Source: Podocnemis expansa (Eukaryota; Chordata; Testudines; Podocnemididae). Taken from it: 64,000 nt of DNA. Every line of letters starts with the position of its first letter. The first letter of the stretch is position 1. Shown here one piece after another: positions 4,522 through 56,938 of this stretch. The translations under genes and the position numbers were made by a program. Under the pieces are notes generated by a model. It was not told where the DNA came from. It searched no databases and saw nothing but the letters and a program-made list of their open reading frames with translations. The stretch is from positions 731,751 to 795,750 of the forward strand of contig ML682123.1 of the NCBI GenBank assembly GCA_007922195.1. Reading direction: 5' to 3'.

Positions 4522-4891
4522 TCTCCAGTAGATGGAGATCGTGTTTAACAAATTCTTTTGCTCTTTCTCTGACTAGACTCTGTCCCTTGCCCCTCCCCAG
4601 TCTTCTGTCTCCTTCCTGCTGCAAACAGTTAAAGCTGGCTGACCCAGGAGAGTAGAGAGGGCTGGTTTGTCTATCTGTGGCTGGGGAAAGCCTATCTTCC
4701 CTCCAGTGGCCTCTGCAAATATCACACAGCTGGGTCCCATTACCAAAATACATGAGTAACGTGTGTGTATGGGGTGGGGGTGGGAAACTGAGGTGCTCAC
4801 CTAGCAAACAGAGAAATTTCCAAGAACAGCTCCACTTCGTCCCAGCCTCTACCCCCTGCCCTGCAGTAGTAGCCGCTCCTCTTTCCCTCAG

Positions 4892-9689: not shown

Positions 9690-10020
9690 CATACCCAGGG
9701 CTCTGAGGGCCAACCTGTGGACACAGTTGTCACAGATCAGGGAGTCAGTGGGCGGGTAAAGAGAGAGACTGTCCCTTTAAAGGGAAGTCTAATATGGCCT
9801 ACTGTAAGTCCTGGGAGAGGTCAAGATCCTGAAGCCAGGCTGCTCAGCGCATAACCACAGCCATAACAATGCCATGGCTGGCTGTGCTCGAGGCATCGAC
9901 AGACACTGTAATGGCATGGCGAAAGGCCAAGGCACCTTCCTTGACAAAGGCATTCAAATCCTCCAAGTGTTCTTGGGGGAGGAAGCTGCTGAAACTCTTC
10001 ATAGCATCCCACAGATCTAG
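9690..10020 (-). pseudogene. DIRS-like Gag remnant
   Basis: The minus strand gives about 65 mostly open codons with DLWDAMKSFSSF, EDLNAFVKEGALAFRHA and VSVDASSTASHGIVM, then an in-frame stop, then AAWLQDLDLSQDLQ. The order Val-Met-Arg, stop, Ala-Trp-Leu-Gln mirrors the conserved V-M-R-R-x-x-W-L block of DIRS Gag proteins of turtles. That family comparison is from memory; a database search is needed to confirm it. Confidence 0.6.
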
Positions 10021-10189
10021 GGAATCTTTTAACTAAGGCCTGATGGCCAGGATACCTCAGATGAAAAACTGAAATCTGAATAGCCTTTTTTCTTTCCCCC
10101 TTTTTTTTTTTTTTTACCGAGGAGGTCAAAACTTCTAGACTCCTAGAGGACCTAGGGTGAATCAGGGCAGCCTTTGTAGTCGAACAGCG

Positions 10190-10500
10190 GCACTGAGAGG
10201 GTTCCGGTGCCAACTGAACACATGGTGCTGGGTTAGAGGCCGATTGCGGCTGTATTCATAGCCGGAGACCAGCACTGAGAGGGCTCCAGTGCTGACTGAG
10301 CACACGGTGCTGGGTTAGAGGCCAATTGCGGCTGTATTCGTAGCCAGAGAGTGGCGCTGAGAGGGCTCCGGTGCTGACTGAGCACATGGTGCTGGGTTAG
10401 AGGCCAATTGTGGCTGTATTCATAGCTGGAGAGTGGTGCTGAGAGTGCTCCGGTGCTGACCGAGCACACGGTGCTGAGTTGGAGGCCGATCGTGGCTGAT
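10190..10500. repeat. about 82-bp tandem repeat, block 1
   Basis: Nearly four successive units contain GAGAGGGCTCCGGTGCTGAC, GAGCACATGGTGCTGGGTT, AGAGGCCAATTG and GGCTGTATTCATAGC with a period of about 82 bp. Units differ by a few substitutions. The array lies in the Gag-proximal part of the DIRS-like element. Confidence 0.85.
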
Positions 10501-11224
10501 TCACCCTGATTCAGGGCGGCTCGGGCTAGTGTGTCCCAGCAATGTCAAGGACACGAGTACGGAGGGGGAGAATATAATGGCAACTGGAGAAGTTTCGTAC
10601 CCCAGGTCGAATAGGGGGTCCTGGTCTCCCTCGAGGGATGTGACCCTGACCCAGGTAGGTGGTAGCCTGGTGAGGGCATTCAAGTGCGGTAGGGTCTTCT
10701 CTGTAAGACCCTGGCCCCTGTTCATGGATGTAGTCAGGAGAAGGGACAACCCTGGTGCTGGGGTGCCCTCACCGGGGCCATGGCACAGAGTAGGGATTCC
10801 CCTTCTGAGCCCTCAGTAGGAGATAGCTGGTTTCAAGTGCAGTGTAGGGAAGAACCCAGTGCCGCGGACCCTTTAGTAAGGGACTGGGCCTGAGGAATGC
10901 GCTCTCAGATTTCTCGCAGTGCTGAGGCAAGGGTGTTGGCGCCATAGGGGTTGGGGCCCGTAGTTTTGCGGTGGCATGGGCCCAGGTTGTGAGTGGCTCC
11001 CCCTGATGCTGGGTAAAGTGGAGGGAGGAAGGAAGACAGACTTATCATTTGTTTCGGCGGCCTGCAGCGTATTCAGGAGTCGAAGGGCCTCTGCCACTTC
11101 AAAGTCCTCCAATGTGGGTGGCACTGTGATAGGCTCTAGGCACTCACCCTGGAGGGGAGGGCCAGACATGGTGCTGGCACTTCAGTGCTGGATTTGGCCC
11201 TGAGTGCGCCTACCTGAGCTCTCC

Positions 11225-11680
11225 TGGGAAGCAGCATTGAGAGAGTCTTGGTGCCAACTGGCAGGTGGAACTGCTGCCAACTTAGTGGCTGATCATGGCT
11301 TTCATTCATAGCCATAGAGTGGTGCCGATGGGGTTCTGGTGCCCACCAAGCCCATGGTGCCAAGTTAGATGCTGATTACAGCTTTTATTCGTAGTCGAAG
11401 AGCAGCACCAAGAGGGTTCTGGTGCTGACCGAGCACACGGTGCCAGGTTAGAGGCCAATTGCATCTGTATTCATAGCCGGAGAGCAGCACTAAGAGGGCT
11501 CCGGTGCTGACCGAGCACATGGTACCAAGTTGGAGGCCGATTGTGGCTGTATTCATAGCTGGAAAGGGGCGCTGAGAGGGCTCTGGTGCCGACTGAGCAT
11601 GCGGTGCCAGATTAGAGGCCAATCACGGCTTTCTTTCATAGCTGAGAGCGGCGCCGAGAGGGCTACGTGCCACAGCGCAC
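11225..11680. repeat. about 82-bp tandem repeat, block 2
   Basis: Further units of the 10190-10500 repeat, with the same GAGAGGGCTCCGGTGC, GAGCACATGG and TATTCATAGC landmarks, more diverged towards both ends. The sequence between the blocks is not repetitive. Confidence 0.8.
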
Positions 11681-12014
11681 AGTAGCTTGGAAAATCTTCA
11701 GCCCTAGCCCCGGCGTCAGCTGCGGGGCCCGTTCCTAGGCATGTTATGCAGCTGTCGCTCCCTGTCTTCCCAAGTCCTTAGTTTAAAAGACCTGCAAATA
11801 GAGCATAATACACCTTGTGAAGTTCACACAGGCATTAAGAAACCTCCCATGGGGTTGTCCCTCATGTTCAGGTTTCTGTTGGAAGGATGCATTAGGAGCG
11901 CTGGTGAAGTCCGCAAACAGATCTTCCACTGAAAAATACACGTAGAACAGAGCAAAGAGACAGGCCCTTGCATAAAGCAAGAACATGCTGTTCCGTAACC
12001 GTTGCTGAGGGTGG

Positions 12015-12165
12015 AAGAAAAGGAACTGGGGAGGAGCCGACCTGTGGCCATATATATGGCCAGTGGTCAGTGGCTGCCAGCCCTGTCCTGACAGGCTAAG
12101 GCTAAAAGAAGTTCTGGTCAATTGTGCGCTGTGGCATGTAGACACCTAATACTGAATGTATCCGA
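12015..12165. repeat. right inverted terminal repeat of the DIRS-like element
   Basis: Inverted copy of 5826-5965. A third related end, in this same orientation, is at about 39050-39235. Confidence 0.8.
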
Positions 12166-13448
12166 GCGGCGCTCAAAGAGAATTTTTAGTTCCTCAGTTT
12201 ACCCTACCACTGGCTCAGGGATAATAGCCAGTGTATCCCTTTCTCTGAGGATGACATTCTTTATGTCTGCAGAGCCATTTGAGCTGCTGCCCTGGCTGGG
12301 GTCAGAGATGGGAATCAGTGGGGGTTGGAAACAAACATTAGCTTATCTTGGCATCTGCTGAAATGCCTTTGAGGAAGAGCATCTCTTTGTGGTATATAGA
12401 AGATATATCTTTTCCCTTTTTGCAATATTTAGATCCCATGGCAGGAAATGATGTTGATCTAATTGGGTGCACACTCATGAGAGAGGCTGGCTGGAGGCTA
12501 GGACTTGGAAGCTTCAAGTTCAATTCCTTGCGCTGCGCACTTTGGACCAGATGCTTGCCAGTTCTGTGCTTCAGTTTCCCCATCTGTAAAAACGCAATTC
12601 TGGATTCCAAGTCTGGAGGTGAATCTTGTGATCACCTAGCCTAGTCTGATATGCTGAAGAACCAATCAGAATTAATTCCTCCTTGGATTAGAGCAGACTC
12701 CCAGAAAAACATCTCTTGATTTAAGACGTGCCCCTGACAGACAACCTACCATGACCCATGGCATGGTGTGCTGTTGGTTCGCCACTCACACTGTGATGCT
12801 GTCTGGGTCCAGAGGACTGGTTATGATTATTTTGCATATTAATATTTCATGTTTGCAATAATCCATATTGGATATCTCAGTAGAAAGGCTGTAATCTGTT
12901 AAGAATTATTATATGGTTTATATGTAGGTATCATGCCTGTATTAGAAATTAGAAATCTATTTGTTTTTATGTGTGTTCCAAGTGATTTGATTTTAAGGCA
13001 TTCCCAGACTGGCTATCTGCAAAAACATTACCTTCCTAATGGCCCGTCAAGGGAACTCCCAGCTGAAGTGGGCATTGGAGGAAACTTGTTTGGCCAGTCA
13101 CCCAAGCTGACCATGTGACTCAACTCCATTTTGATTTGGCAAGGACTCTGAGAGCATGGGGAGGGCCAGAAGGTGATAATAGGCCAAAGCCTATTCTCCA
13201 TTTTCTCTTTAGTGTTTTGTCTTCAGTCTGCAACCTGCAATCAACACCCTCCTCTGGAACTATCCTTCTGGGACTGAACAAAGGACTAAGACTCACCCAA
13301 GCTGCTGGGTGCATACCAGAGGAGTGGGACTAACCTGCAAACTACAGGATCTTCAAGGATTGCTTTCTATGGACTCTAAACCATTAGCATGTATGTGATT
13401 CACTCTGACCCTTTAACATCTCTCATATTTTGCTTTTTTCCTTCTATA

Positions 13449-14243
13449 TGTAACACCCATGTGGCCAGATAGAGTCTGCCTTGCAGGCGGCTCTGGCCAG
13501 AGAAGGGTGTGCGTGGGGACACAGCAAGGAGAGCCCCTTTGCCCCTGGGGCGTCTGTTCCAAACCCCCCAAGTGACCACACCCACACCCACACCCACCCA
13601 CACACACACACACACTGGGATACCACAGGGATTATGGGAATAGGGAAGGTTTCTTTACAGAGGTGCAGAGAGGAAACCAACAGGGGAGATGGGGCAGCAG
13701 TAACACAGAGTAACAGCTAACACAGGGCCCTGCAAGGCCCAACAATGCAGCAGGCCGGAGGCAGACATGAGCTCTGCATATGCACCATGAGTTCAGGAGT
13801 CCCAGCACAGCTCCAGTCCAGTGTTCAGTCCAGCAACTCCTAGTCTTCAGCGTCAGCACTTTCCCAGCAAAAGAAAACTCTCTGATGCCTCTTCTGCCTC
13901 TCTCTGCGAACCCAGAGCGACAACCTCCCCACTTAACTAACTACAACCTCCCCCCTGAGTCCCAGGTGCTGGACTCACGGCCCCACAGCTCCAGAAGGCC
14001 AGTCACTGGATGCTGCTCTGTCCTTGGGCGACTCTCCCCAGCACAGTGTCCTTCTGTGGGGGCTGGCCTGGCATCCCAGGTCAGCGTCTCTGTCTTCCCT
14101 GGCTTCAGGCAGGGCCTCTCCCTCTGCTTCCTTCCCAGGGCCTCTGGCTGCAGCTCCAGCCCCCCTCCTCAGCTCCACAAACCCTCTCCCATGGGGCAAA
14201 CATTTAAAGGAACCACGGTCCTTAAAACCCCAGGGGGGTTACA
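13449..14243. mobile_element. nested TGTAAC...GTTACA element (solo-LTR-like)
   Basis: Its ends are TGTAACACCC and GGGGGGTTACA and it is flanked by TATA at 13445-13448 and 14244-14247. The uninterrupted relative at 49.7-50.8 kb has a single TATAT-TAAACC at this place, which confirms the insertion. TG...CA ends fit a solo LTR, while the 10-bp inverted ends would also fit a DNA element. It includes a CA-rich simple repeat at 13577-13616. Confidence 0.7.
13577..13616. repeat. CA-rich simple repeat
   Basis: CCACACC and CA units over 40 bases. The short ORFs rich in Val/Cys or Thr/His here are artefacts of it. Confidence 0.9.
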
Positions 14244-14659
14244 TATATTAAACCTTTAGTTGTAGTTACTAAAGGATTGGCTGGCAGCATGATATTTTGG
14301 GTAAGATTCAAGCCTATATTGTTCCAGGTGATGTGGCTGACCCTTTGGGGTCAGGAGAACCTATTTCTTTAAGAGACCCAGTGGCTAGAGGGGACCATAG
14401 GAGCTGATGTGCAATAAGATGGCTGCTTCTGTTTATTATGCTTGCTGATGACCAGAGTGGGGAATAAGAAGCCTGTTATGTTACTGACTGGGAGACTGGT
14501 TTAAGTACCACCCGTCAGTGGTTTGGGGGTCTGGCCCCTGGTTTTGCAGGTTGCCCTGATTTTGGCACATTCAGAAGGTTATCCCAAGAGGCCTGGGTCA
14601 CACACACACCATTAAGAATTTACACCTTACTTCCACTCTGACAATGTCCAGTGTCAGCC

Positions 14660-15290
14660 TTCAGTTGTGTTAGGCCTTTGTAAAGGGGCATTTTGCAGCT
14701 TTTGTCAGCCATCAAGCAGAAAGTTTAAGAAAGTGGTAAAGAGTCATGACCCATGGTTTGGCTCTTTGGGGTGTCAGAAAAATATAGTAAAACTGTCTAT
14801 GAACCCTGACCGCAAGCTGCTCCAGATGCCTGACTATGATAGGTGCCATGGTAACAGGTTGTGGGTGAGATTTTTAAAGAACTTCTGGATATTAACTCAG
14901 CAAATGCACAGGATGTGGTCAGGGTAGGCTGTCTTCCCCTCCCCTTTTCCAGCGATGTGCTTGCAATAAGGAAATTGGCTGTCACTGCAAATGTCAGTGA
15001 CAAGAGGTTATGAATGAGATTGTCAGGTTGTGGCGCGAGTGCCTCTTGAAGTCCAAAGACTGACCTTGTCTTCCACTGAAGCATGGTGCAGAGCTGAAGG
15101 TACCTTCAGAGAGGAACCTTGACTGGTCGATGGGATTTATTGGAACTGGTAACACCGATTGATGAGCTACAGCTATAGGGCTACATTCATTTATTTAATT
15201 GGTGCTTAGCAATTGTACAATGAAAGGTTAATAAATTATAGTCTCTAAGGCGTACCGATGTGCTGTGCTCTCTCTTGGAATCCATTAACT
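14660..15290 (+). repeat. LTR-like dispersed repeat (pairs with 30100-30690)
   Basis: It shares with 30100-30690 the blocks AACTGTCTATGAACCCTGAC, TGGTCAGGGTAGGCTGTC, GGTGCAGAGC and CCTTGACTG in the same order. An AATAAA signal is present near 15229. The other copy directly follows a retroviral env-like remnant, so I infer that both are LTRs of one family. Ends are not exactly placed, and no ORF is credible. 15290-15870 shows nothing recognisable. Confidence 0.6.
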
Positions 15291-15872
15291 CCTCTTCAAA
15301 CCTTGTAAACCTAAGTCAGTGAGCTCTCAGGAGAGAGGAACTGACAGATTGGAAAACCAAGGAAGGATTTCCCTCAGGGAGCCTCTAGGAGCGAGGAAAT
15401 TGGGGGAAAAAACCACCTGACCTTTATCCAGTGAGTCCTCAGGCGAGGGAATCTGACTGAACTGCAGGTGTACACTCTCAGGGGAGGAAATGTGACCTGC
15501 TGACCGCAAGGCATAGGATAACATTGGGTGCTGGACTCACAGGAACGTAAGAGGTTAGGAGAGCTAGACTGCCTTTGTGTTAGCATGACCTCCAGGTGGG
15601 CTAGAATGCATTTAATTGCCCGTCTCCAGTGTCTCAAAAAACCCCAAAATATTAAACCCCAACAGTCACAGAGAAGCAGCTGGAGATCCAGGAGTCAGTC
15701 CATAAAGGACTCACAGCAAAGATTGTTCAGTTACCCTCCCCACATTAAAATACTATCTAAAACCAAACATAATGAACTTTATTAATTACTAACTTGGTAA
15801 ACCTTATCATAAAACAAACCACCCAAAATGAATTTAAACACAACAGTCTCCACAGAAACATTATGGGAAACA

Positions 15873-16366
15873 GGGCCGTACCTAGGGTAGGGTGACCCGG
15901 GCAGCAGCCCAGGCCCAGGCCCCTGCGCCAGCCATCCCATGCTGGGGACTGAGAGAGCCGGCCAAAAGCGTGGCCTGGTTCAGCGCTGCCAGTCCCCGCC
16001 CGCGCCCCCCCGGTCATGTGTACTGCTCTTGGTTCTGTGCTGGGGCAGCGGGGAGGTGGCGGAAAGCAGTGCCGGGCCCATATCGCTACTCCTCAGCCTG
16101 GCTGTGCTTCCTCCTGCCTCCTCCCCATTGCCTCCGGCACAGAGCCGAGAGCAGCACGCATGGCTCGGGGGGGGGGCAGACCGGCAGCGCTGAACCAGGC
16201 TGCCCTTTTGGCTAGCTTGTCCCGTCCCCGGCATGGGATGGCTGGCGCAGGAGCCTGCCCCGCCATTGGGATTGCTGGCCCCACCCGCCAGTGCCGGGGG
16301 GGATGAGTGGGAGCCCTGCAGAGGGTGAGTTGCCTGGGGCCCCGCACCCGCCCAGGGATGGCCTTG
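15873..16366. mobile_element. non-autonomous hAT-like element
   Basis: It starts CAGGGCCGTACC and ends GGGATGGCCTTG. Flanking 8-mers are ATGGGAAA (15865-15872) and GTGGGAAA (16367-16374), 7 of 8 identical. The GC-rich interior has no transposase. A fragment of the same family is at about 23030-23355. Confidence 0.75.
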
Positions 16367-16478
16367 GTGGGAAAGAAACCCAAGAGTCCCAAAGTTCAGG
16401 TGGAGTCACCCATATCTTAGCTGCAGTCTGTTCAAGTCCAAACTTGCAAGAAGCAGAAACCCTCTTCTTTGGCACAGG

Positions 16479-16851
16479 CAGGGCTAGCTTGACCCATGAG
16501 CAAATGAGGCCCTGGCTCAGGGCACCATTTACTTGTGGGCGGCTGCAGTGCTGCGCTGAGGGCAGGGTGGGCCAGCCCAGAAGCCAGACCTCACCCTCCT
16601 GTCCCTCCCTGAGACAGTCACTCTGCCCCTGGGAGTGGAGCAGGCCAGCCCACGGATCAGGCTCCATTATCTTGCTCTGCCTCTGGGCCGGCCCTCCCAA
16701 CCTGGAGGGAGGAACAGCTGGCCCAGGGGAGGGATAGGGCGAGTCGGACCAGAGCAGAGGCTGGGTTCCACTCCCATCACTCCCCCATGTGGTTGGGGGG
16801 CGCAAAATCAAAAGCCAGCTTGGGGTGCCATAGCCCCTTGAGCTGGCCCTG
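16479..16851. mobile_element. non-autonomous hAT-like element
   Basis: It starts CAGGGCTAGC and ends GAGCTGGCCCTG. Flanking 8-mers are GGCACAGG (16471-16478) and GGTACAGG (16852-16859), 7 of 8 identical. It is the same family as 24016-24340. Confidence 0.78.
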
Positions 16852-17066
16852 GGTACAGGGATCTTAGTAGGAATCCATTCAGGCTTTTCTTTCTCTTCTG
16901 GAACCTGCACCATCTAGTCAGTTCACTGGTTAACCAGCATTCAGTTACATATGAGAAAACTCTGCTGCAAAATGCTCCACAGCAGGGAGATAACATCTTG
17001 CTGTCCACTCCTGGGTCAGCTTCCCCCAGTCACACACTGAGCACATGGGCTCTTCTCATTGCAGTT

Positions 17067-17081
17067 CTGTGGCTGCTGCTC
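17067..17081. repeat. 15-bp direct repeat, left flank of the U2/Utopia composite
   Basis: CTGTGGCTGCTGCTC occurs here and exactly again at 22462-22476, just outside the two ends of the U2-derived sequence. It looks like the target duplication of the U2 fragment's own insertion. The inner bases overlap what U2 itself would have (GGAGC on the minus strand), so the U2 boundary is ambiguous by about 4 bases. Confidence 0.8.
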
Positions 17082-17168
17082 CTATTCCATCTCCCTGTTC
17101 CAAAAATCCATTTAATATATAGTCCTCAGATAGAGGACGTATCAGATATTAAACTGATAAGAACAGAT
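17082..17168 (-). ncRNA. U2 snRNA pseudogene, 3' segment (nt 38-124)
   Basis: Read on the minus strand this matches canonical vertebrate U2 snRNA nt 38-124 without indels: the branch-site-recognition region, then stem IIa sequence, the Sm-site-like ATTAAATGGATTTTTGG stretch and GGGAGATGGAATAG. Three substitutions are seen against the canonical sequence as I recall it: C78T, A85T or its neighbour, and G108A. The remaining 3' part of U2 is missing. Nucleotides 1-10 and everything after about 128 are absent at this locus and two LINE copies interrupt it, so it cannot make U2 RNA. Confidence 0.93.
17143..17168 (-). repeat. 26-bp target duplication of Utopia (3' side)
   Basis: U2 nt 38-63, identical to 22163-22188. 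The LINE's 3' terminus (TTTAA) abuts U2 nt 38 here. Confidence 0.95.
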
Positions 17169-17473
17169 TTAAAGTTTTATTATAAGTTAATATTTCATGG
17201 ACAATAGAGGTTTACAGTATAGCAGTAGGAGGTATCCAGACGGGGGTACGGGCTATCGGTGGGTACAGGGCCATTGAGGTCGGGGAGCGGAATAAGAACA
17301 TAGCCCAAGGGGTCCCGGATGGGGAGTGGAAGCGGGGGTTTAGGATGTAGGAGACAACACGGTAATGGGGGGGAGGTTACGCGTCACAGTGATCGCAGGG
17401 GGGTATAGGAGGAGGCGAGTACAAAAGTTGTGACAGTGCAGGATCCCCCATGGGATCCGTGGGGTGGTGAGAG

Positions 17474-18390
17474 TTACGGGGTGTCACGTCTTGGTGCTCC
17501 CGATACGTGGTACTGTCGGTGGCCGGTGATGTGCTCCACGTAGATGTCTTGGGACCACCGGATGCAGTCTGACACCATGAGGCGTCGCATGAGGCGGGCG
17601 TAGCGCCAGCCGACGCCGCAGGCCCGTAGCACAGTTTCGTTGCGAGGGTCCCAGGCGCCCAGGGCCCCTACGATCAGGGCATGGACCTGGACCTCGTAGC
17701 CTTTGGCTCTCAGGGCGTCGGCTAGGGGGGCGTACTTCTCCTCCTTCTGTATCCGTGCCGCGTGGAAGGCCGGGGACCGGTTCTCAAAGGGGATCATGAT
17801 GTCCACCATGATGACCCTCTTGCGCTCCTCGTCGGTGATGACGAGGTCGGGCCTCAGTTGGCTGTTGGTGCCGGGGATGGAGGAGTTGGTAGCGACCGTG
17901 CCTAGCCGGGCCGGGATGGCTTTCGCCAGCTGGTCTTGGACCGCGTTGTGACGGAGCTGCCAGGCCCTGGAGTGGGGCTTGCAACTGCAGAGGACGTGGG
18001 GCAGGGTTTCGTTGACGTACCCGCACTTCCGGCAGCGCTTGTCCCGGTTCCCATGGTGGATGGCTCCGTTGAGCGGCAGGCAGTTCAGCCAGGCCCTGTG
18101 GATGAAGCGCCAGTCTGCGAAGCGGGTGTAGCTGCCCTCGGCCAGGAAGTGGTTGCTGGCATCCCATTTACTGGTGAGCTCGAAGACCTTCCCTTGGTCG
18201 GGTTTCTTTTTCAGGGTCTCTACGTAGAGGGCGTGGACGGCATCCATCAGGGTCCTTTCCAGCGTGCCCCGGGCATGGGGGGGGACGATGGTGTTGTCGG
18301 GGGCGTTGATCCACGGAACCAGCACCGACAGTTCCTGGCGCTCCTCGCACCACGTCCAGCGGCAGCCCAGGCGCTTGCCCGGGCGCTGGC
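17474..18390 (-). pseudogene. Utopia restriction-like endonuclease domain
   Basis: The open frame extends up to 18568, but the genuine part begins near 18390, where the upstream frame hands over. Visible in order: a conserved GCRWTW/LSVLVPWINAP block, then a CX2CX8HX4C zinc knuckle (C-R-K-C ... H-V-L-C-S-C, 18034-17981), then the endonuclease core with R-P-D (about 17851), a V-D-I aspartate about 15 residues later and the downstream KEEKYAPL lysines. This is the PD-D-K arrangement of R2/R4/NeSL-type endonucleases, which cut target DNA to prime reverse transcription. It ends at a stop at 17474. It sits one base out of frame with the RT ORF; the break lies within 18370-18400. Confidence 0.88.
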
Positions 18391-21300
18391 GACGCGGGCA
18401 CGGGACCAGAGGGAGGAGATGTTGCCTCCGTCCCGGTGGAACTCTCCGTCTAGGGAGCTGCTGAGGTAGGTGGCGATGTCTTGTCCGGAGGGGGGCCTGG
18501 CGATCCGCTTTTGGGCGGCCTCGTGTAGCGCTCTGGCCGCAATGGTCTTTACCTGGGCGTCCGGGCATGTCAGCAGGCGGAAGGCCTGGGTGATCACCGC
18601 GACGTCGCGCAGGTCGCCCATGCGCGGCACATTGGCACCCCCCTGCCGGTGGCCGATGTAGGTCAGCTCGTTGCTGGCCCTCTGCGGGAGGAACAGCCAG
18701 TGCTTCACGAGCCGTCGAATGGCCCTGTCGGCCTTGTTGAGGGGGACCTTGGCCACGGCCGAGCCCCGCAGGACAAACGTGATGCGGGGGATGAGAAAGG
18801 TGTTGAGGGCAGCGATTTTTTGCCAGGGTGCCAGCAGGGAGGCGTCGAGCTTGGCGGCATCTTGCAAGATCTCGTGGATGGTGTCCTCAGGAGTCTGGCA
18901 TACGCGGAAGCCCGTCAGCGTTCCCAGGTGCTGGTACGCCTGGCCCTCCTCGAGGGGGGTCATGGTCTCGCCCTGGATAAGGAAGGGGCTTGGCTGGACC
19001 GGGTCCTTTCTGCGGCCATCGATGTGAAGGGACGCGCACTTTTTGGCATTGAAGCGCAGCCCTATCCAGTCGGCCGCCCGGCTGGTGGCGTCTAGCATGT
19101 CCTGGAGGTGCAGGGGGTCTTCCGCGATCAGGACCAGGTCGTCCGCGTAGGCCAGGATGTTGACCTTCTCCCTGTGGAGCTGGAAGCCCCTCGGGTCCTG
19201 GGCGACGGCTCGGATGAGCGGCTCCATGGCGAGGTTGAAGACGATGGGGCTGAGGGGGCAGCCTTGCTTCACCCCGCTCCGGATCGCCACCTCGGCCGTC
19301 TCTCCCTCGGTCAAGCGGATGGTGGTGATGCAGCCGTCGTACAGGTCCCGGAGCAGCTGGATGAAGCTGTCTGGCATCCCGAACTCCGCCAGCGTGGAAA
19401 AGATGTGCTGGTGGGGCATGGACCCGAAGGCATTGGCCAGGTCCAGCCAGGCCACTGTGCATTGCCTCCGCGCTCGCCTGGCCGTCTGGAGGGTGGACTG
19501 GAGGAGGAAGTTGTGTTCATAGCATCCCTCGCAGGCCATGAAGCCCTTCTGGACGGAGCTGACGGCGCCCCCGGCCACGGCCCAGTCCGTGATTCTGGCA
19601 GCCAGGCAGCCGGTGTAGAGTTTGTACATGGTGGAGCAGAGGGAGATGGGTCTCCAGTTGCCGGGGTCGTCCCTCTCGCCCTTCTTGTGTATCAGCACCG
19701 TCATGGCCTTCTTCCAGGCGGTGGGGGTCCGGAGGAGACGTTTGCAGCGGTTGAATAATGCCGAGAGCACCAGGCAGCCGGGGTCCCGTTTCTTGAGGAT
19801 ACCGTAGCGGATACCGTCCTTCCCCGGCGCCGTGTTCTTGGTCCTGGCCAGCCTGGCCACCACCTCCTGCGGCGTGAAGTCCGCCTCCAGATCCCCTACC
19901 TCGCTGATTCTGGGGAGCGGGGGAACACACGCCGGGCGCTCGGGAGTTACTAGGTCTGCGCGGTCGAAGACCTCGGTGAAGTAGGCCACCAGCCTCTCGG
20001 GGGCGATGGTGCAGTAGGGGGAGGGTCCATCGAGGATCTCTCGGACCGCCTTGGTGCGGTTCGCTCGGAACAGCTTCTGGATCTTGGAGGCCGCGGCCGG
20101 GTCGTAGCGTCTGGTCTGGTTCCTCCTTCTGGGCCCTCTCTCAACGTTGCCACGATTTGCTGGCGGCCTGCGGGGGGTCGCCGAGGTGGTCCCCTGGGCT
20201 GGTGTTTTCGCTGCGGTGATATCATCGGTCAGCTCCTGGGTGAGCCTTTCCATGAGGGGGTCGAAGACGTCGAAGGATTCTGCTGCGGCGAGCTGCTCTA
20301 GCCACAGGAGCTGCCAGGGTGTGGCGGGCCTTGTCTCTGGTGGTTCGTTGCTGTCCTCAGGGGGGGGCTCGGGGCACCCGTCGGATGGGCGTCTGGCTCG
20401 TGGGTTACCTCTGTCCTGGCGCCCGTGGGACCCATCGCTCAGGCGGTGGGTCGGGGGCACTGGCAGTGTTCCGGGGGCCCCATGCGAGGAGCCTGAGTTT
20501 GGTGTTCGGGGGGTGTTGGCACCTTGTTGGTGGGTGGGCTCAGGAGCTCTGGTCTCGGGTCTGAGGGCTGCCATCCGGGGCCCCGTGGTGTCACTGGGCC
20601 GCCTGTGGCCGGGTTCCTTTCGGGCGGGCTCTTGTGGGATCGGTGGGGGCCCGGACGCGGGGGTCCGGGTGGTCAGCGCGTGTGGCACGGCTGGTGTTGG
20701 CCTTCCGGCCACAGCGTCTCGGCTTGCTGGTGAAGGGGGGGGCCTCGCCCTCGTAGGTGGATGGGGCGCGCCCCCCCTCCCTGGATCTGGTGCGGGCCTT
20801 GAGGGTGTGCCGGCTGGCGGAGGGGCGACGGGTGGGCTGGCGACCGGAGGTAGGTGTGGAGGGGCTGCCCCGGGAGGAGCGAGCCGCCCCTTGCAGAGTT
20901 TTTGGTGCCTCTTGCACTGCTTCTGTGTCTCTATGACCTTGCTACAGCTCGCACATCTGAAGGCCACCTTCTTGTTGTGGATGTTCCTCAGGTGTCTCGT
21001 GGTGCCACCCAGGAGGTGGAAGTGGCGGGTCGGGAAGCAGAGGGGGCAGCGCAGGGTCTCTTCGGTGAGCGGGTAGCTGAAGTATATGAAGTCCCCTTCT
21101 TCTCCCTGGGGGGCCTGTGCCGGGCGGGCTTCGGCCCCACTGGCGGTTCCAGGGGAGGAGCCGGGGGACCCCGGGGGGGGTGTCCCGGGGGGTGAGGGTG
21201 GGTCTGGTGGGTCATCGGAGTTCATCGCGGCAGCGTTTCGGCGGAGGTGCTCCAGGACAGAAGCGACCCTGGTCTCGATGTCTCCCGTGCCCACCCCCGG

Positions 21301-21744
21301 GGGGCCGGGTCGCATCGCGGCGGGCCCGTGGGGTCTAAGGGCCGCGGGTGGGGAGGTGGCGTGAGTCTCGTCCGGTGGGGTGGGCGCGTAGGTCACTGTG
21401 GCTGGGGCCGAGGGAATTCCCGGCGGGGGAGGCGAGCCTCCCCCGGTGGCTGGCTCCCTGAAGTCGGCCGTCCCGCCAACGGATCTCGCGGGGCAGTTCC
21501 AGCGGCCAGTGGGCTCCCGGGGGGGTCGGATGGGCGGCGGGGGGAGCGGCAGCCAGCTGCCTGGCGATGGGCAACCGGTTGGTCTCGGGAGCGGCCTCGG
21601 TGGGGCCGGTCCTGCTCCCAGGGGGCCCCGGGGAGGATGTCCCCCCGGGGTCGGGGGCCGAGACCCCCATGCCTGCCGCCCGGTGGGCTGCGATGATGAG
21701 GGGCCAAGTCCATTCCCGGCGAGCCCCAGCAGGAGAGTGTACAC
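18247..21744 (-). pseudogene. Utopia ORF: zinc fingers and reverse transcriptase
   Basis: This is a 1165-codon open frame on the minus strand; numbering here starts at a GTG at 21744, and the first in-frame ATG is residue 144 (21315). Pro/Gly/Arg-rich N-terminus. Zinc finger 1 is CX2CX14HX4H (C233, C236, H251, H256) and zinc finger 2 is CX2CX12HX3C (C264, C267, H280, C284). The reverse transcriptase follows: GKDGIRYGILKK, RPISLCSTMYKLY, WLDLANAFGS (catalytic Asp 768), GVKQGCPLSP and AYADDLVLIA (YADD 866-869, 19149-19138). All catalytic aspartates are present. The last ~50 residues are out of frame after a single-base indel, so the endonuclease lies in another frame. The frame is also open upstream from 21744 to the U2 junction, with no ATG. 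Confidence 0.9.
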
Positions 21745-22117
21745 GGCGCCAACTCCGGCCCCTCCCGTGTCGGCTGCCGGGCGGGCGGTGGCGGTGTTGT
21801 TGGAAGTGGGGGCGCGGAGTCCAGACCCGGCTGGCGGGGGTGGCCACGGGGATCCCTCGGGTGATTCCCAGGAGTTCGTGGCCCTGCGTGCCTCGGCCGC
21901 TGCAGCAGCAATGGGGCCAGTCCCGTCAGCGGGGTTCCCTGGCAGGGGGATCTCCAGGGATGGGGTGGCCGGCTCCCCGGGGGCGGCTACCCGCTTACCT
22001 GGGGCGGAGGCGGTGCTTGAGCCGGCTTCGGTCTCGGTGGCTCCCTGTTGTGGCTCCTCCGCGTGGCCGGCCGGCTCCCCGACGCTGGTGGTGTGCGGGG
22101 CCTTGTCGGCATCCGGA

Positions 22118-22133
22118 CCGAGCTTCCGCTCGG
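22118..22133 (-). other. perfect hairpin near the Utopia 5' end
   Basis: A 6-bp perfect stem with a 4-base loop (CCGAGC-GGAA-GCTCGG on the minus strand) lies about 30 nt from the element's 5' junction. R2 elements, which are co-transcribed with their host RNA, carry a self-cleaving ribozyme at this place. I cannot show a ribozyme fold here; only the hairpin is seen. Confidence 0.45.
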
Positions 22134-22162
22134 CGTGTCTCGGTGGGGGAGACCAGGCGGCG

Positions 22163-22188
22163 CAGATATTAAACTGATAAGAACAGAT
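22163..22188 (-). ncRNA. U2 snRNA segment nt 38-63 between the two Utopia copies
   Basis: It is identical to 17143-17168. It forms the 3' junction of the truncated copy (U2 nt 38 at 22188) and the 5' junction of the long copy (U2 nt 63 at 22163). Confidence 0.95.
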
Positions 22189-22435
22189 TTAAAGGTTTTA
22201 TTAGAAGTTAATGTTTCGTGGACAACAAAGGTTTACAGTATAGAGACAGTAGATATCTGGGTGGGGGGTATGGGCTATCGGTGGGTACAGAGTCATTGGG
22301 GATCGGGGAGCGGAGTAAGAACATAGCCCGAGGGGTCCCAGATGCGGTGGGAAGCAGGGGTTCGGGCTGCGGGAGGCGACATGATAGTGGGGGGGAAAGT
22401 TACGCGTCACAGTGATCGCAGGGGGGGTACTGGAG
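22189..22435 (-). mobile_element. Utopia-like 3' fragment, second U2 insertion
   Basis: It is a 5'-truncated copy of the 3' UTR, alignable with 17169-17420 (shared blocks include TACGCGTCACAGTGATCGC and GGGCTATCGGTGGGTACAG), with many differences. Its 3' end joins U2 nt 38 exactly like the long copy. Its 5' end joins U2 nt 37 directly, so it shows no duplication of its own. Confidence 0.92.
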
Positions 22436-22461
22436 ACTACACTTGATCTTAGCCAAAAGGC
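22436..22461 (-). ncRNA. U2 snRNA segment nt 12-37
   Basis: The minus strand reads GCCTTTTGGCTAAGATCAAG then TGTAGT, identical to canonical U2. The match stops at about nt 11, where the 15-bp flanking repeat begins. No PSE/DSE-type snRNA promoter context is expected, because nt 1-10 are missing. Confidence 0.95.
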
Positions 22462-22476
22462 CTGTGGCTGCTGCTC
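22462..22476. repeat. 15-bp direct repeat, right flank of the composite
   Basis: Identical to 17067-17081. 22480-23030 holds nothing recognisable. Confidence 0.8.
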
Positions 22477-32691: not shown

Positions 32692-35600
32692 CATAGAATC
32701 ATAGAATCATAGGGTTGGAAGGGACCCCACGAGGTCATCTAGTCCAACCCCCTGCCAAAAAAAGCAGGACCACTCCCATTAGATCATCCCAGTCAGTGTT
32801 TTGTCCAGCTGGGACTTGAACACCTCCAGCGATGGAGATTCCACCACCTCCCTAGGCAGCTTATTCCAATGCTTCACCGCTCGCCTAGTAAGGAAGTTTT
32901 TCCTAATATCCAGCCTGGACCGCCCCAGCTGTAACTTGAAACCATTGCTTCTCGTTCTGCCCTCTGTTACTACCGAGAACAGTTGAGCTCCCTCCTCCTT
33001 GGAGCAACCCTTCAAGTAGTTGAAGGTTGCTATCAAATCCCCCCTCAGTCTTCTCTTCTGCAGGCTAAATAAGCCTAGTTCCTTCTGTCTTTCTTCATAG
33101 GGCTTGTGCTCCAGCCCTTTGATCATTTTGGTTGCCCTCCTCTGGACTCTCTCTAATTTGTCCATGTCCTTTTTATAGTGGGGAGCCCAAAACTGGACAC
33201 AGTATTCCAGATGTGGCCTCACTAGTGCAGAATAGAGGGGAATGATCACATCCCTTGATCTGCTGGTAACACTTCTTCTGATGCAGCCCAGTATGCCATT
33301 GGCCTTTTTGGCAGCAAGAGCACACTGCTGACTCATGTCCAGCTTCCCATCCACCATGACTCCCAGGTCCTTTTCTCCAGTGCTGCTATTTAGCTGATCA
33401 CTCCCCAGCCTGTAGCAGTACATGGGGTTTTTTCGTCCCAAGTGCAGGATTTTACACTTATCCTTGTTGAACCTCATGAGATTCCTCTTGGCCCACTGCT
33501 CCAATTTGTCTAGGTCTCCCTGAATCCTGTCCCTGCCCTCTAGGGTGTCTACCGTTCCCCCCAGTTTGGTATCATCTGCAAACTTACTAAGTGTGCAATC
33601 TATCCCATCATCCAGATCATTAATGAAAACATTGATCAGAACTGGCCCCAGGACCGACCCCTGGGGCACACCACTTGTTACTGCCTGCCAACTTGACATG
33701 GAGCCATTGATTCCTACACGCTGAAACCGTTGTTCTAGCCAGTTTTCTATCCACCTTACAGTCCATGCATCTAACCCATACTTCCTTAATTTGCCAATGA
33801 GAATGCTGTGGGAAACCGTATCAAAAGCCTTGCTAAAGTCAAGGTATATCACATCAACGGCTCTTCCCGCATCCACAAATCCAGTCATCTCATCATAGAA
33901 GGCGATGAGGTTGGTCAGGCATGATTTACCCTTGGTGAATCCATGCTGACTGTTCCTGATTACTCTATTTTCCTCCAAGTGTTTCAGGATGGATTCTTTG
34001 AGAAGCTGCTCCATGATTTTTCCAGGGATTGAGGTGAGGCTGACAGGTCTGTAATTCCCAGGATCATCCTTTTTGCCTTTCTTGAAGATAGGTACTATAT
34101 TTGCTTTTTTCCAGTCCTCTGGCACCTCCCCCGTTCGCCACGAGTTTTCAAAGATAATGGCCAACGGTACTGCTATCTCATCAGCCAGCTCCCTCAGCAC
34201 CCTCGGATGCAGTTCATCCGGCCCCATGGACTTGTGCACATCTAGTTTCTTTAAGCAGCCCCTAACCTGACCTTCTGTCACCAAGGGCCTCTCTTCTTCT
34301 CCCCAGTCTACCGTACCTAGTGTAGTGGGCTGGGAGCTGACCCTGCTTGTGAAAACTGAAGTAAAAAAAGCATTGAGCACTTCAGCTTTTTCCTCATCCT
34401 CTGTCACGAGGATGCCTGCCCCATTCAGTAAGGGACCTACACCATCCCTGATCCTCTTCTTGTTATTGATATACTTGTAGAACCCCTTCCTGTTATCCTT
34501 CACATCCCTTGCTAGTCGCAACTCCATTTGTCCTTTGGCCTTTCTGATTTTATCCCTGCAGTCCCGAGCAATGTCTTTATATGCCTCCTTAGTCATCTGT
34601 CCTAGCTTCCACTTCCTGTAAGCATCCTTTTTATGCTTCAGCTCGGTGCAGAGCTCTCTGTTAAGCCACAGTGGGCGCTTTCCACATTTGCTGTGCTTTC
34701 TCCTTATCGGAATTGTATCTTCCTGTGCCCTTATCAGGGTTTCTTTAAAATGCACCCAACTGTCTTGGACACCTTTCCCCTTCAGATCAGCCTCCCAAGG
34801 GATCCTGCCCATCAGTTCCCTGAGGGAGACAAAATCTGCTTTTCTGAAGTCCAGGGTCTGCGTTTTGCTTCTTTCCTTCTTTCCTTTAATCATCAACTTG
34901 AACTCAATCATTTCATGGTCACTGCTACCCAGGCTGCCATTCACTTCTACTTCCCTGATAAATTCTTCTCTATTTGTGAGCAGCAGATCGAGAGGCGCAA
35001 AGCCCCTAGTTGGTTGCTCCAGCATTTGTACCAGGAAGTTGTCCTCAACACTCTCCAGAAACTTCCTGGATTGCCTGTGCACTGCTGTATTGGCCTTCCA
35101 GCAGATGTCAGGGTAATTGAAGTCCCCCATGAGAACCAGGGCCTGTGCTCTAGAAACTTCTGTCAGTTGTCCACAGAATGCCTCATCCACCTCCTCCTTC
35201 TGATCTGGTGGTCTGTAGCAGACACCTACCACAACATCCCCCTTCTTGCTCTCCCCTCTAAACTTAACCCACAGACTTTCAACTGGCTTGTTTCCACTTT
35301 CATAATGAAGCTCTGAGCAGTCATAGAGCTCCTTTACATATAGTGCTACTCCTCCCCCTTTCCTTCCCTGCCTGTCCTTCCTGAACAGTTTATACCCATC
35401 TATTACAGAGCTCCAGTCATGCAAACTATTCCACCACGTCTCTGTTATCCCAATCATGTCATAGTTCTTTGTCTGTGCTAGTACTACCAATTCCTCCTGC
35501 TTGTTTCCCAGGCTCCTTGCATTTGTGTATAGGCACCTAAGATACCCAGCTGATTGCCCTACTTTCCCATTTTGATTTTCAATTCTATTGTATCTACCTC

Positions 35601-35870
35601 CCTGGATTTTCTTTTGGTGTTGACCTCCCCTACCTGCCTCAGGCATTAGGGCTTCATTAGAGCATCTAAGAAAGTTATTTGATTCCCCCTGCATGTTCCA
35701 ATTATCCTCTCTTCTGTCCCTGGAGTTACAGTCCCGGCACCCCCCAAGTTCCATCCCATCCCTCTGGTCTCCCACATAGTCAACTTGTTTAGGTTCTCCA
35801 GGTACTGGAGAAGTGGATGGCATCTAGGAGCCCAGATGAGAGATGACACCCTGCTGACCCACGCTGAAGA
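32692..35870 (-). mobile_element. CR1 LINE with complete ORF2 and 3' end
   Basis: On the minus strand, ORF2 is followed by a short 3' UTR and the tandem ATTCTATG tail at 32692-32715. The copy seems truncated just upstream of ORF2 near 35870, with no ORF1 recognised. The degraded copy at 985-2130 and tails at 58318-58575 and 59928-60290 belong to the same superfamily. Confidence 0.93.
32779..35823 (-). CDS. CR1 ORF2: AP-endonuclease and reverse transcriptase, uninterrupted
   Basis: This is a 1014-residue open frame without stops. The N-terminal apurinic-type endonuclease (about 95-310) has NARS (101), ITETWW (Glu128), GDFNYPD (233-239) and SSDHEM (SDH 301-303), the catalytic and metal-binding positions of the fold. 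The reverse transcriptase (about 520-800) has [25 protein letters not shown] (661-668), [11 protein letters not shown] and FADD (748-751). A C-terminal domain follows ([15 protein letters not shown]). CR1 ORF2 proteins are about this length, so the copy is close to full coding length and could be a recently active sequence. Start is uncertain: the Met at 35823 is the first of the frame, but the element is 5'-truncated near there. Confidence 0.93.
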
Positions 35871-56030: not shown

Positions 56031-56751
56031 GCCAGCCCCAGCAGGACTTGTGTGGGAGAAGAAAACCCTGAGCTCACCCTGGCCTCCTCCTCAGTGGATG
56101 ACATGTACAGAGGCTGTGAGCACGCCATGATGCAGCAGCTTCTGTCCCTGATCCAAAAGGAGCTGGCCTGGAAGAAGATCTTCCGCTTAGCATGGAATGA
56201 GGCCAAGAAGAACTGGATGGTGAAGCAGCATGTGTACATCTTCCCCAACACAATGAAAGCTTTCTGTAGTGTTGCCGTGGTGGCCTATACCTTAAACAAT
56301 CCACCTCTGTATAAGGAGTTCAACACGGCCACCAGGACAGGCTGGAATGGACCCCACTCCTACTCCAGCTACTCCTTCAAGGCTTTGCATTTCCTGTTGA
56401 CCCAGGCACCCAAAGAGATATGGGGAATAAAGCCCAGCTGTGTTACTGTCTACAGAGGAACCAAGGAAACGTTCTCCGTGCACAGCTTTTTCCGCTTTGG
56501 CCAGTTTACCTCCACCTCCAAGAACCAGACGGCAGCAGCAGCATTTGGTCAAAAGACTTTCTTTGTCTTGGTTTCCTGCATGGGATATGCCCTGAGGGAC
56601 CTGTCTGTCTACCCTGGAGAACAAGAGGTGCTGGTGCCACCCTATGAGATGTTCCAGGTTACTGGGGTTCAGCAGAACTGGCAGGGGAAGGTTGTCCGTG
56701 TCAAGTCAGTGGGGAGCTGCAGCAACCACAATTGTGCCTATGCTGGCAAAG
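56031..56751 (+). CDS. ecto-ADP-ribosyltransferase, catalytic exon (ART1/ART5-like)
   Basis: This exon transfers ADP-ribose from NAD+ to arginine in target proteins, at the cell surface or outside the cell. It is a 721-bp exon between acceptor CCTTCCCCTAG|GCC (phase 0) and donor AAAG|GTGAGT (phase 1). Numbering from the codon at 56052: VDDMYRGCEHAM (15-26), the FSVHSFFRFGQFTSTS core, arginine of the VYRGT motif (R135, 56454), STS (154-156) and the catalytic E-x-E in PGEQEVLVPP (E190 and E192, 56619 and 56625). This R-S-ExE triad, with Glu at the first position of ExE, marks an arginine-specific enzyme of the ART1/ART5 type. Cysteines that form disulphides are present (C22, C223, C228 region). 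No frameshifts are seen, so it is probably functional. GPI anchor cannot be judged, since the last exon is uncertain. Confidence 0.92.
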
Positions 56752-56938
56752 GTGAGTGCAGGGCAGCAGGATGGATGTAAGCTATGGATCCGCCAGGGTG
56801 TGCAAAACTGGCTACAGCTCAGTGACACATGGGGCCCTTCCCTGCTAGGGTGCACCAACTCTAAGCTGGCCCTGGGGCAGGGGACTGTCTGGGGCAGGGA
56901 TGACAAGGAAAATTAACTATCACTTTTCTGTTTCCCAG

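Follow-up and report, generated by a model that had tools for sequence, protein, structure and literature searches.

How can a long interspersed nuclear element (LINE) that inserts at one particular base of the U2 small nuclear RNA (snRNA) sequence be found twice, one copy behind the other, in what reads as a single U2? The question is raised by a stretch of 64,000 nucleotides (nt) from the turtle Podocnemis expansa (assembly GCA_007922195.1, contig ML682123.1, positions 731,751 to 795,750; called the window in the following), on whose minus strand U2 nt 11–37, a LINE tail of 247 bp (B), U2 nt 38–63, a LINE of 4,994 bp (A) and U2 nt 38–128 follow one another. The pieces, their boundaries and the duplications are read directly from the letters, and the same arrangement stands at further loci of the genome. 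The explanation that we consider likely for the whole is that a truncated U2 copy was placed here, that A, a LINE of the Utopia type, inserted into it and thereby duplicated nt 38–63, and that B afterwards joined flush into the rebuilt site.

The U2 sequence and its two insertions

The initial annotation of this DNA gave the five-piece layout correctly to the base. It did not mention a perfect 15-bp direct repeat, GAGCAGCAGCCACAG (22476–22462 and 17081–17067), that encloses the whole structure, although the interval it delimited, 17067–22476, coincides with the outer ends of this repeat. Perfect matches of at least 15 bp anchored at both ends turned up in 1 of 19,670 control draws of the same spacing, which may contain the real site itself, and in 2 of 19,900 random draws. 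The outer U2 lacks nt 1–10 and anything beyond nt 128, and at both ends the repeat stands there; the host U2 is therefore a truncated copy, probably a tailless retropseudogene rather than a working gene. Truncation of the 3' end, here at nt 128, within a target duplication, here of 15 bp, is a trait of such retropseudogenes. The claim of site-specific integration into U2 stands with respect to the site; the U2, being truncated and lying inside the repeat, is no evidence for insertion into a U2 gene.

The part comprising nt 38–128 is above the Rfam threshold for U2 and is identical at 88 of 91 positions to human U2. The three differences (nt 78, 85 and 108) look typical of the host, since all of them recur in the U2 of three other loci of the same genome (L031–L033). 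From the U2 parts of these loci the window differs at just 1, 1 and 3 of 91 bases, and it is thus little decayed. Besides the pieces listed in Table 1 no further convincing U2 match was found in the window (best remainder E 0.76).

The tails of A and B meet U2 at the identical base (...CTTTAA/ATCTG), as had been noticed before. That the nick site was the same twice, namely 37/38, is correct for the base; since U2 nt 38 is itself an A, the join is either 37/38 or 38/39. The idea that one target was used repeatedly has to be modified in a similar way: U2 nt 38–63 is best read as the 26-bp duplication made by A, and the two 3' ends therefore meet two copies of one target. A and B are different copies, since their tails are only 84% identical (214/255).

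A fits Utopia, a LINE with restriction-like endonuclease, and it is not full-length, relatives at three other loci (L040–L042) reaching further 5'. Its reverse transcriptase (RT) is recognized as PF00078 with E 3e-34, and at a threshold of E 0.01 Pfam returned RVT_1 alone; Myb, RNase H and Exo_endo_phos were not found by Pfam in A. Near 18,390–18,406 the frame changes, and the C-terminal frame beyond has 364 codons. The endonuclease matches the endonuclease region of R2 (E 4e-11); the residues of the CCHC finger and those of RPD, D and K fall in conserved columns. The nearest proteins among the best 120 of 332 matches are from Lepidochelys kempii (75%), Chelydra (73%), Gopherus (71%) and Pelodiscus (66%). 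In an RT tree of 40 rows, 36 of which were picked from these 120, the window and four turtle rows form a group with support of 100/95, Pelodiscus comes next, and three R2 rows stand apart. In a second tree, with three of the earlier rows dropped and a second Utopia family of the same genome added, the window again lies among turtles (98/94 for eight rows including the window and the second family), with no exact neighbour singled out. The companions of A in these trees, built without Utopia or NeSL references from Repbase, are proteins from Lepidochelys, Eretmochelys, Gopherus, Chelydra and Pelodiscus. The name Utopia, already proposed in the initial annotation, is based on the domain type (zinc fingers, RT and restriction-like endonuclease), on the target base and on Utopia published from turtles (main text of Kojima and Jurka, 2015; PMC4640811).

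Two other assignments were rejected. Keno, of the Tx1 clade, has the same U2 target base according to the text of PMC4640811, but its endonuclease is of the apurinic type, whereas that of A is restriction-like and A has no Exo_endo_phos match. With R2, a LINE of 28S ribosomal DNA, A has in common that its RT and endonuclease align to the solved R2 proteins; however, its target is U2 or U2-like rather than 28S ribosomal DNA, Pfam finds no Myb in it, and its RT forms a separate branch. Also rejected were a ribozyme like that of hepatitis delta virus at the start of A, for which Rfam gave no match even at E 5, and a structured 3' tail, which has no extra stability (z 0.10) and for which two compensatory pairs, from only two sequences, do not suffice. 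Among viral contigs no relative was found.

Table 1. Features of the stacked locus in the window and short tails of the stacks at other loci
Feature	Position	Strand	Remark
Direct repeat, left copy, 15 bp, GAGCAGCAGCCACAG	22462..22476	-	Bounds the whole structure
U2 snRNA nt 11–37	22436..22462	-	First base common to direct repeat
B, 5'-truncated Utopia 3' tail, 247 bp	22189..22435	-	5' join flush with U2 nt 37
U2 nt 38–63, exact	22163..22188	-	Interpreted as the target duplication of A, 26 bp long
A, Utopia-type LINE, 4,994 bp	17169..22162	-	5'-truncated relative to L040–L042
Open frame of A, 1,165 codons	18247..21744	-	RT; zinc-finger motifs, recognized by eye, in the N-terminal part
N-terminal zinc-finger region	20860..21108	-	Aligned to turtle protein P0001, residues 287–372
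RT domain PF00078, with LAYADD	19009..19692	-	Pfam
C-terminal open frame, in a different frame	17474..18568	-	CCHC finger and restriction-like endonuclease, by alignment
CCHC motif to endonuclease RPD...D...K	17744..18034	-	Conserved columns
3' untranslated tail of A, ending AATAAAACTTTAA	17169..17473	-	Sequence
U2 snRNA nt 38–128	17078..17168	-	Sequence comparison and Rfam
Direct repeat, right copy, 15 bp	17067..17081	-	First 4 bases common to U2 nt 125–128
Stack L042, short tail of 122 bp			5' of the long element
Stack L039/L049, short tail of 381 bp			5' of the long element
Stack L040, short tail of 381 bp			5' of the long element; abuts the upstream repeat

Target sites and U2 heads elsewhere in the genome

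The 2.39-Gb assembly was searched with a 421-bp query made up of the A tail and U2 nt 38–128; 40 of 80 candidates were scored and 30 loci cut out, of which 27 have a readable 3' end (L015, L016 and L027 do not). At least 18 of the 20 bases of U2 nt 38–57 stand at the 3' end in 11 of the 27 (L001, L002, L005, L006, L009–L013, L022 and L028, L001 being A and L022 being B), a fraction that is biased upwards since the query included U2. Control placements with at least 17 of the 20 bases numbered 0 of 49,660. Exact ATCTG is found at the 3' end in 7 of the other 16 loci (L007 and L008, both among the seven, are one site) as compared to 367 of 50,000 in the control. L003 and L004, counted separately, are apparently a single insertion represented in two contigs. 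For the genome copies examined, the preference of A-type copies for the U2 nt 38 site that had been expected is thus supported, and the Utopia trait of a 3' end abutting U2 nt 38/39 is present in the window and in the genome copies.

The arrangement in the window had been taken to be rare. Among the loci read there are, however, three further stacks (L042, L039/L049 and L040; Table 1), in each of which a short truncated tail abuts a target copy 5' of a long element. U2 5' halves ending at nt 33–37 stand right at the 5' join in L035, L036 (= L037), L039 (= L049), L042a, L043, L044, L053 and window B; in L050 a 10-bp repeat separates the two, and in L033 the same is seen for the second Utopia family. 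Nine of the 22 extended loci (L038, L045–L048, L051, L052, L054 and L055) lack a U2 5' half of this extent at the join. Where U2 resumes at nt 38 on the right (window B, L035, L039, L042a, L043 and L044), the copies are read as truncated ones that inserted flush within ~3 nt and without duplication. The long copy in L042 has U2 nt 38–57/58 on both sides, with one mismatch. The truncated copies of L039 and L040, which are separate loci, both begin at position 4614 of A, and in each of them AG overlaps at the join to the U2-like sequence. L036 and L037, which lie on contigs C50 and C49, show one and the same truncated insertion and 3' flank, i.e., a duplicated region or two haplotypes.

At L040 an exact 48-bp direct repeat, ATCTGTGAATC...GATTGATCTA, flanks a copy of ~6.5 kb at a site that is not U2; the duplication is 46–48 bp long, depending on whether the terminal A on either side is counted as part of the element. 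The long copy opens with U2 nt 1. L041 shares this 5' end, down to the mutations in the U2 head, behind an unrelated left flank, from which it follows that the U2 head of L040 came with the element. L040 is therefore sequence evidence for a 5' part of U2 travelling with a LINE. The transposed head in L040 and L041 points to a Utopia RNA that starts at U2 nt 1, and judging from L040–L042 long Utopia RNAs would generally begin there, as from a U2 promoter.

Beyond nt 57 of the 3' flanks canonical U2 continues in L001 only; L002 and L010 go over into divergent U2, L022 into A, L005 into other sequence, and L012 and partly L013 into small repeat units. What follows in L006, L009, L011 and L028 is interpreted as the beginning (5' end) of the second Utopia family, since L042, the extended form of L011, leads directly into this family (L056), whose open frame extends over 1,399 codons within the part read. 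A U2-headed family of short interspersed nuclear elements (SINEs) was rejected as the downstream repeat of these four loci on the same grounds. Crocodilian SINEs headed by U1 or U2 are reportedly the subject of a paper by Kojima on SINEU. L042, L056 and L068 lie on one contig, in which a tail fragment is followed by a long A-type copy and then by the second family with its long open frame; the 3' flank of the second family is not U2 there.

U2 nt 38–128 has 33 matches in the genome, of which 17 were read (window, L002/L034, L010/L035, L031–L033 and L057–L067). A tail of the second family stands directly before U2 in six of these (L031–L033, L058, L060 and L061), and in L059 such a tail is followed by U2 nt 38–62, a small unit and U2 nt 38–187. 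The tails of these seven match that of L068 at 74–91%, the lowest values being those of L058 and L059. Among the 17 of 33 matches read there is no near-canonical U2 that is intact; working U2 genes may lie outside the assembly or among the 16 remaining matches.

Divergent U2 is present in L002/L034, L010/L035 and L067, in some cases with an altered yet pairing stem (GGTTCCC...GGGAACC, by eye), contig C164 carries a cluster of several weaker U2 matches, and in L034 (5680–5713) a Utopia tail is preceded by an inverted U2 5' half, next to which there is a short stretch of N. Units of 103–121 bp in L059, L053 and L043 (also in L023 and L012) consist of U2 nt 38–57, or a remnant of it, plus ~97 bp. 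They mostly end with TTTAA, or nearly so, before ATCTG-like sequence, and adjoin Utopia tails, U2 or other such units; possibly they are a tiny non-autonomous element of the U2 site or a U2-derived satellite. Tandem repeats of 82 bp lie in the window at 10189–10503 and 11292–11671, and similar units (by eye) occur downstream of the second family in L068. The window also contains an unbroken LINE open reading frame of 1,014 codons (32779–35823, minus strand) with endonuclease (Exo_endo_phos match) and RT domains, which may be CR1-like, and an ADP-ribosyltransferase gene (56052–56780, plus strand) with its nearest match in the side-necked turtle Pelusios castaneus (77%; other listed proteins at most 72%). 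This one host gene thus points to a side-necked turtle as host, without being proof.

Order of events and competing explanations

A copy of U2 nt 11–128 would have been placed with a 15-bp target duplication, in the manner of a tailless retropseudogene. A would then have inserted at nt 37/38 by target-primed reverse transcription and left the 26-bp duplication of nt 38–63, so that an intact target, U2 nt 11–63, was kept on its 5' side. The second, 5'-truncated copy B would have used this rebuilt site, joining flush at nt 37. With A first, B finds the full U2 nt 11–63, whereas with B first the site of A would be left without 5' U2. We infer from this the order A before B, together with the retropseudogene origin of the outer U2 and, as the general cause of stacks, site rebuilding: long insertions would duplicate the target and thus rebuild an upstream site that truncated copies then hit flush.

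Several observations weigh against this explanation. B before A may still be compatible with the evidence. L036/L037 and L053 have a U2 5' half on the left, but on the right they leave U2 after 4–6 nt. The U2 nt 38–57/58 flanking the long copy in L042 is ambiguous, being either a ~20-bp duplication or the copy's own U2 head. Clear target duplications are seen at two long insertions only, A and L040, and their lengths of 26 and 46–48 bp differ from the 20 bp published for reptile Utopia, which in the text of PMC4640811 is a property reported for these families and not a defining one. In L041 the 5' end and the tail are separated by 5,000 N and therefore need not be from one copy. The outer U2 resembles the tailless retropseudogenes described in the text of PMC5322556 in being 3'-truncated without an A tail, in its flanking duplication and in a 4-nt homology at the 3' end; it differs in that 10 nt are gone at the 5' end, by which it drops out of the screen used there (complete within 5 nt), and in that its site is not TT/AAAA-like, reading GA/GAGCAG, unlike the L1-type target TT/WAAAA. 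At six U2 fragments without adjacent Utopia tail (L057 and L062–L066) no target duplication was detected with a scan that does recover the one in the window, and retropseudogenes of this form are therefore unsupported as common here.

The stack could also be the product of one event, in which the RT copied A and then jumped to a B RNA reading through into U2 nt 38–63, ending flush at nt 37; neither a target duplication nor a second insertion would then exist. Template jumping is known for the R2 reverse transcriptase, and the 5' join of B lies exactly at nt 37 without duplication, as a jump would have it. At L040, however, the same arrangement stands at a non-U2 site, and the piece between the tails is a copy of the 46–48-bp site found on both sides of the long element, which counts against a single template jump. 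The stack fragments moreover vary in length (247, 122 and 381 bp), and we consider one event to be improbable. Equally low are the chances that the stack was formed in a U2 gene, transcribed from the promoter as one RNA and copied to its present place with the 15-bp duplication. A U2-headed copy was indeed retroposed in this genome (L040, whose head L041 shares), U2 nt 38–128 of the window is little decayed (1, 1 and 3 differences from L031–L033 in 91 bases), and of the U2 fragments scanned, that of the window alone is flanked by a duplication. But AATAAA, a signal for ending RNAs, is close to the 3' end of both tails and would tend to stop the RNA at B, which counts against one long composite RNA; a read-through of 5.4 kb plus a U2 3' end at nt 128 would be required, and a U2 gene with the same nested arrangement is absent among the 17 of 33 U2 matches read. 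Least probable, and very much so, is a decayed U2 gene in which the 15-bp repeat has arisen by chance: although seven U2 3' parts stand elsewhere behind second-family tails (six directly, one with a small unit between), U2 nt 1–10 and the part beyond nt 128 are replaced by the repeat, for which the control rates are ~1 in 10,000 to 20,000.

Starting from A first and B into the rebuilt site, a wider reading may be proposed, to which we give credence only tentatively: turtle Utopia would keep its own landing pad and promoter, U2 heads would spread the target, and truncated copies would stack flush. If the top strand is cut 20–48 bp past the nick, a long insertion would rebuild U2 nt 1–57/63 upstream of itself. 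The RNA would start at U2 nt 1, and U2-headed copies would bring the target to new places. Truncated copies stacked flush would place AATAAA between promoter and element, and the ~97-bp units with the same junction may be non-autonomous members.

Known systems and the upkeep of a U2-specific LINE

Much of this is known from the text of Kojima and Jurka (2015; PMC4640811): the occurrence of Utopia in turtles and other reptiles (Chrysemys, Chelonia, Pelodiscus, Anolis and Alligator), the U2 target base, the 20-bp duplication and the weak specificity for U2-like sites in reptiles, and tandem insertions in U2 in Nasonia. A has in common with Utopia as described there that it is a LINE of the restriction-like-endonuclease type with N-terminal zinc fingers and a 3' end at U2 nt 38/39. 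In the text of that paper there are no stacks with flush truncated copies and no U2-headed long copies, which figures or supplements might show, and in the main text there is no word starting with "promoter". In a literature search of a limited collection, neither stacks nor U2 heads of turtle Utopia were the subject of any paper listed. What appears to be new is the proposed self-renewal of the site together with the probable transposition of the U2 head, and also the flush truncated copies beside duplicating long ones. In Ciona (U2_sat and YURE), too, repeats derived from U2 are targets of U2-site LINEs (PMC4640811, text); the turtle units differ in being 103–121 bp long and in lying beside Utopia tails and U2. 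Tailless retropseudogenes are described in therians and in the green anole, and in maize eight such cases concern U2 (PMC5322556); the words turtle and Chrysemys are absent from the available text of that paper.

A LINE living on a low-copy gene is expected to exhaust its sites or to hurt its host, and how several Utopia families are kept up beside ~10 intact U2 genes in Phytophthora is, in the text of Kojima and Jurka (PMC4640811), hard to explain. If the site is indeed rebuilt by duplication and taken to other places by U2 heads, this would be a sequence-level answer, one that is testable in public turtle genomes.

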